Below the pieces are notes generated by a model. It made no database searches, had not been told where the DNA came from, and saw only the letters and a program-made list of their open reading frames with translations. Positions 21,805 through 24,829 of a DNA stretch of 34,029 bases are shown here, one piece after another. The position numbers and the translations under genes were made by a program. This DNA comes from Kiritimatiellia bacterium (lineage in GTDB: Bacteria > Verrucomicrobiota > Kiritimatiellia > RFP12 > UBA1067), in the NCBI GenBank assembly GCA_017652705.1, contig JAGCAM010000014.1, positions 1-34,029 of the forward strand, written 5' to 3'. The stretch's first letter is position 1, and each line of letters opens with the position of its first letter.

Positions 21805-22953
21805 ATGGTCAACCGAATCATCCTCAACGAGACTTCGTACCACGGCGCCGGCGCCGTCAAATCCATCGTCGCCGAACTGGCCGCCCGCAGACTGAAAAAG
21901 CCGGTCGTGTTCTCCGACCCCGACCTCGTGAAGTTCGGCGTCACCGCCAAGGTGACGGCGCTCCTCGACGCGGCGAAAGTGAAATACGCGGTCTACACCG
22001 ACATCAAGCCGAACCCGACCATCGCCAACGTGAAGAACGGCGTCAAGGCGTTCAAGGCGGCGAAGGCCGACTCGATAATCGCCATCGGCGGCGGCAGTTC
22101 GATGGACACCGCCAAGGCGGTCGGCATAATCGCGGCGAACCCGAAGTTCGCCGACGTTCGCTCGCTTGAAGGCGTCGCCCCGACGAAGAACCCCTCGAAG
22201 CCGATTCTCGCCGTGCCGACGACCGCCGGCACCGCGGCGGAGGTTACGATCAACTACGTCATCACCGACGTGGAGAAGAAACGCAAATTCGTGTGCGTCG
22301 ACCCCCACGACATCCCCGTCGTCGCGTTCGTCGACCCCGACATGATGAGCTCCATGCCCAGAGGCCTCACCGCGTTCACCGGCATGGACGCGCTCACCCA
22401 CGCGATTGAAGGGCTCATCACCAAGGCCGCCTGCCCGATGACCGACATGATGCATCTGGAGGCGATACGGCTGATTTCGCTTTCCCTCCGCGACGCCGTC
22501 GCCAACAAACCATCCGGGCGCGCCGGCATGGCCCTCGGCCAGTACATCGCCGGCATGGGGTTCTCGAACGTCGGTCTCGGCATCGACCACTCGATGGCGC
22601 ACGGGCTTTCGGCGCTTTACGACATGCCCCACGGCAAGGCGTGCGCGATTTTGCTGCCGACCGCCATGAAGTTCAACGCGCCGAAGACCGGCGACAAATA
22701 CCGCAGGATCGCCGTCGCCATGGGCGTGAAGGGCGCCGAGAAGATGCCGATCGGCAAGGCCCGAAAAGCCGCCATCGCCGCCGTCGAGAAACTCGCCGGA
22801 GACGTCGGCATCCCGCCGGATCTGAAAGGCGTCCTGAAGAAGGAGGATGTCGCGTTCCTCGCGAAGTCCGCCTACGCCGACGCCTGCCGCCCGGGCAACC
22901 CCCGCGACCTCACGGTGAAAGACATCGAGCGGCTCTACAAGAGCCTGATGTGA
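21805..22953 (+). CDS. fucO: Iron-containing alcohol dehydrogenase, lactaldehyde reductase
   Basis: A 382-residue group III alcohol dehydrogenase close to FucO: IIAIGGGSSMDTAKAVG (NAD-binding), TTAGTAAEVTINYVI, GMDALTHAIEG (metal Asp and His) and GIDHSMAHGLSALYDMPHG (two more metal His). It reduces L-lactaldehyde from the aldolase to L-1,2-propanediol and regenerates NAD+. An AAAGGA site precedes the ATG at 21805, 44 nt after the aldolase. It closes the rhamnose unit. The frame is open far upstream through rhaB in a shadow frame, which is not coding. Confidence 0.92.
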   Translation: MVNRIILNETSYHGAGAVKSIVAELAARRLKKPVVFSDPDLVKFGVTAKVTALLDAAKVKYAVYTDIKPNPTIANVKNGVKAFKAAKADSIIAIGGGSSMDTAKAVGIIAANPKFADVRSLEGVAPTKNPSKPILAVPTTAGTAAEVTINYVITDVEKKRKFVCVDPHDIPVVAFVDPDMMSSMPRGLTAFTGMDALTHAIEGLITKAACPMTDMMHLEAIRLISLSLRDAVANKPSGRAGMALGQYIAGMGFSNVGLGIDHSMAHGLSALYDMPHGKACAILLPTAMKFNAPKTGDKYRRIAVAMGVKGAEKMPIGKARKAAIAAVEKLAGDVGIPPDLKGVLKKEDVAFLAKSAYADACRPGNPRDLTVKDIERLYKSLM

Positions 22954-23084
22954 CGGGCTGTCACTATCGCGCTCCCGGTGCGCATGACGGCGGAGTAGAT
23001 TGCCTCGGCAGCCTCCCCCGCCACCTTGCCGAGAGAGGGGACCCCCTTGCCGAGGAGCGGACCCTTCCCATGCGCAGGGAAATT
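22954..23084. other. Gap after fucO with a repeated CCTTGCCGAG block
   Basis: The block CCTTGCCGAG occurs at 23024-23033 and 23045-23054, a 21-nt period, and CTCGGCA at 23004-23010 is complementary to it, allowing a stem with a 16-nt loop. No T-run follows. I see no gene here. It may hold the fucO transcript end. Confidence 0.35.
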
Positions 23085-23093
23085 TGATATAAT
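23085..23093 (+). promoter_or_regulatory. Extended -10 promoter of an orphan signal-peptide ORF
   Basis: TGATATAAT, with a weak TTCCCA 17 bp upstream. The predicted start is near 23100, about 70 nt before the GTG at 23170. Confidence 0.5.
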
Positions 23094-23312
23094 TCGCGGC
23101 GTTACAGGGCTTTGGACGGAGATTCTGGGCCTGAAGCGACAAAACGCCAAAGACAAGAATGGATACGACGTGAAATCGAAAGCATCCCTTGTGACGTGTG
23201 CTGCGCTTGCGGCGGCTGTCGTGTTCGCGGCGGACGTATGCTCCGCCGCGACGTTCGCAAAGCCCTCGGCGTCGGGGCAACGAGGGTCAGACCCCGGTGA
23301 ATACGTTGGGGA

Positions 23313-23341
23313 CAACAGGGTCAGACTTGACTGCCACAGTA
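23313..23341 (+). repeat. Left 29-nt inverted-repeat arm
   Basis: Reverse complement of 23507-23535 at 27 of 29 positions; the differences are two substitutions in the central CTTGACTG / CCTGATTG part. Confidence 0.8.
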
Positions 23342-23368
23342 GATTACCACAGTGGCGGGAGTTTAAGA

Positions 23369-23374
23369 TATACT
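23369..23374 (+). promoter_or_regulatory. -10 element of transposase remnant
   Basis: TATACT 7 nt before the ATG at 23382, in the same position as TATAAT before the other remnant at 2230. This implies a transcript with almost no leader. Confidence 0.4.
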
Positions 23375-23381
23375 GTTCAGC

Positions 23382-23495
23382 ATGAGACGTTGCAGGATAA
23401 ATCTTCCAAATCGGTGCTATCACCTGGTCAGCCGTGTCGCCCATCACGCTTTTGAATTAGGCAAGCGGCGAATCGGAAGGGTCGCGCCGCTATGA
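23382..23495 (+). pseudogene. REP-associated (Y1/HUH) transposase remnant, internally deleted
   Basis: A 37-codon ORF opens MRRCRINLPNRCYHLVSRVA then HHAF, the classic N-terminal strand of a RAYT/Y1_Tnp protein, and continues FELGKRRIGRVAPL before stopping. The HUH motif, the catalytic Tyr and about 200 residues are absent, so the basic tail may be the original C-terminus joined by an internal deletion; that joining is inference. The element lies within inverted repeats. Confidence 0.6.
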
Positions 23496-23506
23496 CAAGG
23501 AAACCC

Positions 23507-23535
23507 TACTGTGGCAATCAGGTCTGACCCTGTTG
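23507..23535 (-). repeat. Right 29-nt inverted-repeat arm
   Basis: Partner of 23313-23341, with 165 nt between the arms. Confidence 0.8.
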
Positions 23536-23638
23536 GCTCCCGGAGTTGGGGCAGGGCTATTTCGGATTTCGCCTTGCGCGTCCGGCCAGGATGCCGGCGG
23601 CGGAATGAGGCTAAGCTTATAGACGGGGGAGACTGGTC

Positions 23639-24829
23639 TTGAACCTGCAGTGTCTGGTGTGCGTGGCAATGGCAACGGCCACGTCTTTCGCGGGAGTCTC
23701 TCGGGAGACGCCGGCGATTCAATCGCAGATCGATGCGGCTGCCGCGGCAGGCGGAGGCCGCGTCACGGTGACGGAAGGTGTGCATCCGTGCGGGACGCTG
23801 CACCTGAAGTCCGGCGTCGAGCTGCATCTCGAGGAGGGGGCTGTCCTGCTGGGCGGCGCGAGGAGCGAGGACTACGCCGATGTCGAGAACAGCGACGGGA
23901 TCCGCCCCGAGGCGAATCCGCCTTTTTCGCGCAAGGCGTTCATCGTCGCCGCCGACGCTCACGACATCGCCATCACCGGCAAGGGAGTCATCGACGGACA
24001 GGGGACCTTGTTCTTCGACCAAAGCTCGGTCTTGTGGGGACAGTGGTGGCAGAAGCCGCCGCATCCGAGGCCGCGCATGATCCAGTTCGCGCGGTGCAGA
24101 AACGTGCGGCTCGAGGGCGTGACGTTCAAGGACAGCCCGATGTGGACGATGTGGATGCGCCGGTGCGAGAACCTGACAGTGTCGGGCATCCGCGTCGTGG
24201 CCCATCCGAAGATCATCAACTCCGACGGCATCGACGTCGACGGCTGCCGGCACGTGCGGATCGGCGATTCGTTCTTCTCCACGGGCGACGACTGCATCGT
24301 CCTCAGGGCGATCGCCGACAGGATCGATCCCGCGAATCCGGTTGTCTGCGAGGACGTGGTCGTCTCGAACTGCACTCTCAGGAGCGTCTGCCAGGGCGTG
24401 CGCATCGGGTGCCCGTCGGACGATCTCATCCGCAATGCCGTCTTCCGCGACATGGTCTTCGAGGGTCGCAACGCCGTTGTGTCGCAGCAGCCGCTCTGCT
24501 ACCTGCGTACCGATCTGCTGCCTCGGTGCCGCGGGCTACTGAAGACGCAAAACATCCTCTTTGAGAACTGGAAGGCTACTTGCACGGGCCGCCCCGTCGA
24601 GATCGCGGTGCAGGAGGGCATCGTTCTGCCGGGCTTCGGCCACATGACGTTCCGCAACTTCGACGTGAAGGCCGACAAGCCCGTCCTCGTGCACGGCAAT
24701 GCCGCATCGCACGTGAACGACATCCGGTTCGAAAACGTAAAGGGCAAGATATCCGCCGACCGTGCGTTCGACCTGGCGAACGCCTCGTGCGAGACGAATG
24801 CGCTGTCCAATGCGATCCTCCTTTTATGA
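23639..24829 (+). CDS. GH28 polygalacturonase / rhamnogalacturonase family protein, exported
   Basis: A 396-residue right-handed beta-helix enzyme of GH28. Catalytic motifs are present: NSDGIDVDGC (NTD motif, first Asp), STGDDCIVLR (the DD pair) and GVRIGCPSDD (RIK/GHG-region equivalent, lacking the usual His). The N-terminus has a signal-like MNLQCLVCVAMATATSFAGV and the pectinase start IQSQIDAAAAAGGGRVTV. GH28 enzymes hydrolyse alpha-1,4-galacturonosyl links in pectin or rhamnogalacturonan. Start is TTG 23639 behind GGGGGAG (7 nt spacing); no ATG or GTG lies between an upstream stop at 23612 and this codon. It follows the mobile-element scar. Confidence 0.85.
   Translation: MNLQCLVCVAMATATSFAGVSRETPAIQSQIDAAAAAGGGRVTVTEGVHPCGTLHLKSGVELHLEEGAVLLGGARSEDYADVENSDGIRPEANPPFSRKAFIVAADAHDIAITGKGVIDGQGTLFFDQSSVLWGQWWQKPPHPRPRMIQFARCRNVRLEGVTFKDSPMWTMWMRRCENLTVSGIRVVAHPKIINSDGIDVDGCRHVRIGDSFFSTGDDCIVLRAIADRIDPANPVVCEDVVVSNCTLRSVCQGVRIGCPSDDLIRNAVFRDMVFEGRNAVVSQQPLCYLRTDLLPRCRGLLKTQNILFENWKATCTGRPVEIAVQEGIVLPGFGHMTFRNFDVKADKPVLVHGNAASHVNDIRFENVKGKISADRAFDLANASCETNALSNAILLL

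Follow-up and report, generated by a model that had tools for sequence, protein, structure and literature searches.

A miniature inverted-repeat element in a Kiritimatiellia genome, probably derived by internal deletion from a TIRtron

The window analysed here is the whole stretch of 34,029 nt from Kiritimatiellia bacterium (assembly GCA_017652705.1, contig JAGCAM010000014.1). Within it a short open reading frame (ORF) lies between inverted arms, downstream of a truncated gene for an exported protein, and the locus raises the question of what this arrangement is and what it was derived from. The original prediction took it for a MITE of a RAYT family in which the transposase start is kept and the middle deleted. 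In our analysis the element is very probably a nonautonomous miniature derivative of a TIRtron, an internal-deletion MITE. Its ends are those of a 1.2-kb element encoding a Y1/HUH transposase of 356 aa that has a winged helix at its C-terminus, the transposase gene is gone save for its first ~26 and last ~11 codons, and the family is dispersed in many copies within one genus.

Extent of the element and the truncated gene beside it

The bounds first proposed, 23284–23535, located the element correctly, but its limits had to be moved. The family consensus, together with a left boundary exposed at a locus in relatives, places it at 23309–23540 on the forward strand (232 nt, inverted ends), which excludes an outer copy of the arm motif. 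The predicted 29-nt arms matching at 27 positions were recovered exactly (23314–23342 against 23506–23534, 27/29); when extended, the arms are 35 nt long with 89% complementarity. The features of the locus are:

23170–23280, forward: 5' stub of an exported-protein gene with signal peptide CSAATFAKPSASG; homology is lost at ~23278
23274–23295, forward: additional arm-like palindrome GGGTCAGACCC, lying outside the MITE; includes AGGGTCAGAC at 23283–23292
23309–23540, forward: the whole probable MITE (internal-deletion TIRtron derivative), from alignment to family copies and consensus, with the left boundary taken from one locus in genomes G032, G034, G078 and G065
23309–23342, forward: left arm (terminal inverted repeat), with core GGGTCAGAC at 23318–23326 and first box CTGCCACAGTA at 23331–23341
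23344–23354, forward: arm box repeated directly a second time, TTACCACAGTG, with one mismatch; the family consensus has two boxes per arm
23382–23495, forward: fused ORF of 37 codons, MRRCRINLPNRCYHLVSRVAHHAFELGKRRIGRVAPL, reading MRRCRINLPNRCYHLVSRVAHHAFEL followed by GKRRIGRVAPL
23382–23459, forward: surviving 5' end of the transposase gene, ~26 codons up to the junction; its DNA is 87% identical to the 5' part of the transposase gene on contig C51 of the same genome, and the protein also matches
23460–23495, forward: surviving 3' end of the same gene, GKRRIGRVAPL-stop against GSERIRRVAPL-stop in the full-length gene
23506–23540, reverse: right arm, with core at 23522–23530 (reverse) and a single box TTGCCACAGTA at 23507–23517, against two in the consensus

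The motif GGGTCWGAC occurs four times in the window (0.43 expected), and all four occurrences fall within 23284–23530. A consensus scan of 23000–23700 detected no promoter within the element; its one promoter-like site, 23065–23093, lies outside. No Rfam family matched the window at gathering thresholds.

The arm-motif copy outside the left arm, noted in the original prediction, is indeed present. Partial extra ends just beyond the boundary (score of at least 9) were found on 9 of 60 flank sides, compared with 1 of 60 shuffled sides and 0 of 52 distant stretches, and the outer copy of the window thus follows a minority habit among the copies. It may be a remnant of another element or arm, because it is palindromic, unlike the arms of lineage A, and resembles the heads of lineage C. 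The claim that the element had cut off an exported-protein gene at its signal peptide is supported for the truncation but not for the place of the break. Relatives of the stub MKSKASLVTCAALAAAVVFAADVCSAATFAKPSASG occur in one of 57 other genomes (G004, two places; best match 59% over 32 aa, E = 3.3e-5) as frames of 217–224 aa, and the remainder of such a protein is absent from the window. Homology stops at ~23278, before the left end of the MITE at 23309 and inside the outer copy; the outer arm, not the MITE itself, therefore marks the break. Upstream of the element, ~99 nt of the window (22961–23059) recur as a 93% copy on contig C105 of the same genome and as an 82% copy in G060, and are another dispersed repeat.

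The parent transposase and the retained gene ends

The full-length Y1_Tnp gene with the same arms that the original prediction proposed to look for exists in a sister genome, G031 [contig C23, CAMAHK010000023.1, uncultured Verrucomicrobia MAG; locus L030:1500-2695]. This parent has inverted arms of 31 nt and the same arm design, and L030:1568-2635 encodes 356 aa that start with MRKSRVNLPNRCYHLISRVAHRAF and end with GSERIRRVAPL. Compared with this relative, the 37-codon ORF of the window consists of the first ~26 and the last ~11 codons of the transposase. The ORF, which has no match in Pfam, had been described as the N-terminus of an HUH transposase; this is correct for its start, but the gene's last codons are present as well. 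Of the MITE description, the derivation from a REP-type (Y1/HUH) element with its middle deleted is borne out; the retention of the start alone is not, and the REP/RAYT label gives way to TIRtron/TIRYT as the closest known kind. The right end of the full-length copy is repeated in tandem 132 nt further on (L030:2560-2830; C-terminal codons and right arm).

The L030 protein matches PF01797 (Y1_Tnp) at 38.7 bits (cut-off 23) and Fic-like_C at 52.1 bits (cut-off 27; residues 284–343). Its score against NCBIfam NF047646 (REP_Tyr_transpos) is 46.5 bits, under the curated cut-off of 80, and six of six relatives also fall under it (43.6 to 57.8 bits). Phmmer against the PDB identifies the Fic protein 4rgl (E = 5e-5) and, weakly, IS200-type transposases (2ec2, E = 0.055). 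The AlphaFold2 model [12-sequence alignment, mean pLDDT 86.1, pTM 0.66] has a low-confidence linker at residues 251–269 followed by a C-terminal helical/winged part; Foldseek places the E. coli REP transposase first among PDB structures [4er8, E = 4.8e-5, TM by target 0.73] and 4rgl (Fic) second. Y1_Tnp scores above cut-off in all ten relatives from the genus. Five of them have Fic-like_C at E ≤ 0.01 (L050, L052, L057, L053 and L056; four above cut-off) and the remaining five match other helix-turn-helix families. The L030 motifs NHFH, GTMWES and GYIDANP follow the REP-type Y1/HUH pattern (NH[YF]H, WE, YI..NP), and NHFH, WE and YIDANP agree with subclass 2.1 as given in Table 1 of PMC6006769. 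In a full-length copy of lineage B (L052:778-1833) ACVDIN stands where other copies have Y(I/V)D.N, so that the presumed catalytic tyrosine is replaced.

Between the parent and the miniature copies there are elements of intermediate size. Longer copies of 308, 330, 617 and 736 nt were found beside the full-length copy of 1204 nt; the 617-nt copy (L103; SUWC01000003.1, Lentisphaerae MAG, probably identical with G062:C152, which is likewise 87,944 nt long) has a frame of 161 codons in which 15 N-terminal residues are fused in frame to the last 146. The deletion junctions are of several types, e.g. GCGTTTGAAGGGGGCAAGC, GCGTTTGAAGGATGGCAAGC and GCGCCATGACGAAGGATGGCAAGC. Part of this variety can come from small indels in a single ancestor, yet the GCGCCATGACGAAGGATGGCAAGC junction keeps more of the 3' end, and we therefore judge that the internal deletions represent at least two events. 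A second clade of transposases, B, is ~50% identical over the N-terminal part and has short copies too. Four among those listed are shorter than the full element, and three of these (L051, L104 and L166) keep 42 N-terminal codons and ~20 nt of the 3' end, with the frame disturbed in L104. The L104 locus is also nested (L104:1934-2450): the right arm of its lineage B MITE contains a lineage A right end that is bordered on either side by CTGACCCTTTTGACCC, which would fit a duplication of the target.

The element of the window is thus short, has no functional transposase, has its ends in common with an autonomous element and belongs to many dispersed copies, which are the marks of a MITE. The origin of short REP-like or TIR-like pairs from Y1 transposase elements has so far been mostly inferred; here one genus shows side by side the parent, intermediate sizes, gutted copies that retain the gene at both ends, and remnants of ends.

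Dispersal, insertion sites and alternative explanations

In the window's own genome BLAST finds a transposase element's 5' end on contig C51, as well as fragments of ends on C7 (two regions) and C80. This assembly comprises 1.66 Mb in 106 contigs and is 67.7% complete, and the only transposase that it shows is the 5' part cut by the edge of C51. Matches to the element were found in 18 of 58 related genomes, all of the same genus, and in 0 of 23 genomes from other genera of the order. When 61 genomes of the genus were searched with the 245-nt consensus, 22 of them gave at least 101 matches in all (E ≤ 1e-20); this count is too low for dense genomes, since scoring was limited to 12 candidates in each genome. 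The copy in the window has diverged rather far, with 87% identity to the consensus against 94–96% for the best copies. A plasmid collection searched with 23304–23540 in distant mode gave no match. The original prediction had named beforehand two outcomes that would count against it, arms that occur once and an ORF unrelated to Y1 transposases; instead, the arms recur both in the same genome and in relatives, and the ORF corresponds to the ends of a Y1 transposase.

Further shared or repeated sequence was seen among these genomes. Sequence to the left of the arm is common to L108, L118, L131, L142, L148 and L149, which are at different sites; it ends in CGCCGCGTGGAGCCGACAAGAC, replaces the usual left end and is possibly a larger mobile unit. 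A partly palindromic repeat of 45–60 nt with CCCGCTTCGCGGGCAGTCGCATTCACTCTG is located at several contig ends of G081 and at G058:C44:18719-18769, and is probably a dispersed repeat at which the assembly breaks off.

Empty sites had also been proposed as a check, and a joined-flank search of four loci in 19 genomes yielded no clean one; a single locus had both flanks without the full element. At this locus G032 carries a 250-nt copy after ...GCCCGCATG, and in G034 the same flanks enclose 30 nt, AAATTTACAGTTGCAGACCCTGTTGGTTCC, the 3' half of which is the right end of the element. The 30 nt are either a remnant or a separate short insertion, so the site is not cleanly empty. Behind the same left flank, G078 and G065 have 16 and 15 nt of the left end, respectively, before another element or sequence begins; comparison of the four genomes therefore fixes the left boundary at GAGGCTACAGGGTCAG. 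For the insertion site of the window copy itself, none of the matches listed covers 23060–23282 or 23550–23716, so no empty site is available. At other loci one flank is common at 98–100% and the other is not (L129, L196, L199 and L200; L127/L155; L158/L165; L145/L159/L038), and in L145/L159 both flanks are common. One-flank sharing possibly reflects recombination between copies, one-ended HUH events or misassembly; the copies come from metagenome assemblies, in which repeats can be misjoined.

How far could the locus be explained otherwise? A chance inverted repeat around an accidental ORF is vanishingly improbable: the top inverted-repeat score in 22800–24200 is 24, the maximum in 200 mononucleotide shuffles is 13 and the arms outscore every one of them, and the family matches refute an accidental origin. 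Spread by ordinary recombination, or as passengers on other mobile DNA with arms inactive as ends, is unlikely. It would fit the several genome pairs with one copy flank in common and not both, and the copies that lie within or next to other repeats, but identity between most copies ends at the arms, with unrelated flanks, and the right end is the best-conserved part. A REPIN or REP element moved by a classical RAYT would account for an inverted pair with arms of ~30 nt and for a parent that is a REP-type Y1 transposase by its Foldseek match and its sub-threshold REP_Tyr_transpos match. The whole element does fold strongly as single-stranded DNA (z = -6.1), but through arm–arm pairing; folding isolated arms, on either strand, revealed no stable REP hairpin (z = -0.4 to -2.5, four folds), and neither these folds nor the arm sequences contain a REP hairpin with a 5' GTAG foot at the element ends. 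Since the parent also has a C-terminal DNA-binding domain and is below the REP_Tyr_transpos cut-off, we regard this origin as very unlikely.

The retained gene ends would find another explanation if the fused N+C mini-ORF were itself selected, e.g. as a small regulatory or dominant-negative peptide acting on the transposase. We compared 47 copies, which remain of 52 distinct elements after removal of L029, L139, L140 and the two of L163, these five being longer or different in kind. The in-frame fusion seen in the window is present in 21 of the 47 in all, intact to an RVAPL-like end, and third codon positions vary more (mismatch to consensus 6.8, 7.0 and 13.7% at positions 1, 2 and 3), but the ORF is broken or out of frame in 26 copies and the C-terminal part is out of frame in clade B copies. 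Within the main junction type (18/47 copies) the excess drops to 5.6% against 3.8 and 3.5%, with a Fisher p of 0.049 when related copies are counted as independent, and it may stem from full-length parents. A working fused peptide is probably to be discounted because so many copies have lost the frame, and selection on the mini-ORF is quite unlikely as an explanation. Tests for such selection (frame status, codon positions, and the comparison within the subfamily) were mostly negative. Non-coding mismatch is 10.6% on the left and 4.3% on the right, and the strongest constraint is thus on the right end, as expected for a cis-acting end. In the internal-deletion reading that we prefer, the gene ends would mostly be passengers left by the deletion, or else belong to the cis-acting ends.

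Arm design and comparison with known systems

Among the genus loci compared, three transposase clades have one arm design, a core GGGTCWGA followed by two direct clade-specific boxes of 9–11 nt spaced 13–14 nt:

Clade A arm: AGGGTCAGAC..TTGCCACAGTA..TTGCCACAGTA
Clade B arm: AAGGGTCAGAGC..TTGATACAGTA..TTGATACAGTA
Clade C arm: GAGGGTCTGACCCC..TGGTGGAGTA..TGGTGGAGTA
L049 arm, cut by the contig end: TTAACATAGTA..TTGACATAGTA

In L056, L058, L059, L060, L061, L066, L067 and L069 the arms are palindromic around GGTCWGACC. Comparison of clades A, B and C with other clades of the genus shows that the core is common property and the boxes are owned by the clades. An ungapped inverted-repeat routine applied to 29 transposase ORFs across the phylum gave a score above 12 in eight, one of them from the genus, and the pattern of core and double box is therefore claimed for this genus only.

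A transposase encoded elsewhere in the cell would recognise the arms as single-stranded or cruciform DNA, its catalytic tyrosine would cut at or near the constant GGGTCAGA core, and the miniature copy would be moved in trans by the parent's enzyme. The winged-helix tail would bind the clade-specific box, twice per arm, so that each transposase finds its own ends. A Fic-like tail is present in all of clades A, B and C, which points to the tail as a possible reader of the boxes; a simple tail–box rule is weakened by L056, with a tail of the same kind and palindromic arms, and the pairing of winged helix and box is drawn from few clades. We therefore put forward only tentatively, and with some doubt, the proposal that ends are modular, the HUH domain cutting the constant core and the tail reading the doubled box as a family address, with each lineage owning its ends and its gutted copies (A and, independently, B). 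Because boxes vary by clade while the core stays, the role of the helix-turn-helix could be reduced to a simple binding experiment. If true, the modular reading would also give a direct view of the origin of miniature TIR pairs, through deletion in the middle of a transposase gene.

By title, open-licence full texts containing GGGTCAGAC were, among the matches listed, apparently unrelated papers, and the open-licence literature on Kiritimatiellae transposases held none on such elements. Other open-licence searches gave nothing further on this point, and the MITE papers among the matches listed were mostly eukaryotic.

Internal-deletion MITEs of classical insertion sequences keep their ends, have lost the transposase gene and occur in many copies, and their parents encode DDE transposases; MITEAba12 is reportedly one example. 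The element described here resembles them in all three respects but differs in its parent, an HUH single-strand enzyme. With REPINs and RAYTs, as presented by Bertels and Rainey (2011; PMC3116915), it has in common short nonautonomous inverted pairs, which a Y1 transposase presumably moves in trans, and solo ends as remnants. REPIN ends in that account are hairpin-forming REPs, with no transposase-gene ends described, whereas the present element has TIRs at its ends and a spacer that consists of gene ends.

TIRtrons or TIRYTs carry a REP-type Y1/HUH transposase with terminal inverted repeats and a C-terminal helix-turn-helix (Di Nocera et al., 2013, PMC3733652; Quentin et al., 2018, PMC6006769), and Quentin et al. 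tentatively equate subclass 2.1 of TnpA-Y1 with the TIRYTs of Di Nocera et al. The parent is better named TIRtron/TIRYT than REP/RAYT, because its arms are without REP hairpins, its REP_Tyr_transpos score of 46.5 is under 80 and its tail is a Fic-like winged helix. Like the elements in these two accounts, it has a REP-type Y1/HUH gene flanked by TIRs instead of REP hairpins (the arms of the window fold weakly alone and strongly together), a C-terminal helix-turn-helix tail, here as Fic-like_C, and TIR families in pairs and clusters. Both arms have AGGGTCAG, which agrees at 7 of 8 positions with GGGGWSAS, a motif of some but not all published TIRtrons (PMC3733652, PMC6006769). It departs from the TIRtrons as described there in the kind of tail (Fic-like_C rather than Bac_DnaA_C, HTH_23 or HTH_28), in arms with two direct clade-specific boxes, and in short copies that retain the transposase gene at its two ends. 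Whether the C-terminal helix-turn-helix helps target choice was left open by the 2018 classification (PMC6006769); the modular reading, if true, would give this domain of TIRYTs a function. Against the open-licence literature, the family and some of its details appear to be new, and the kind of element is already known.
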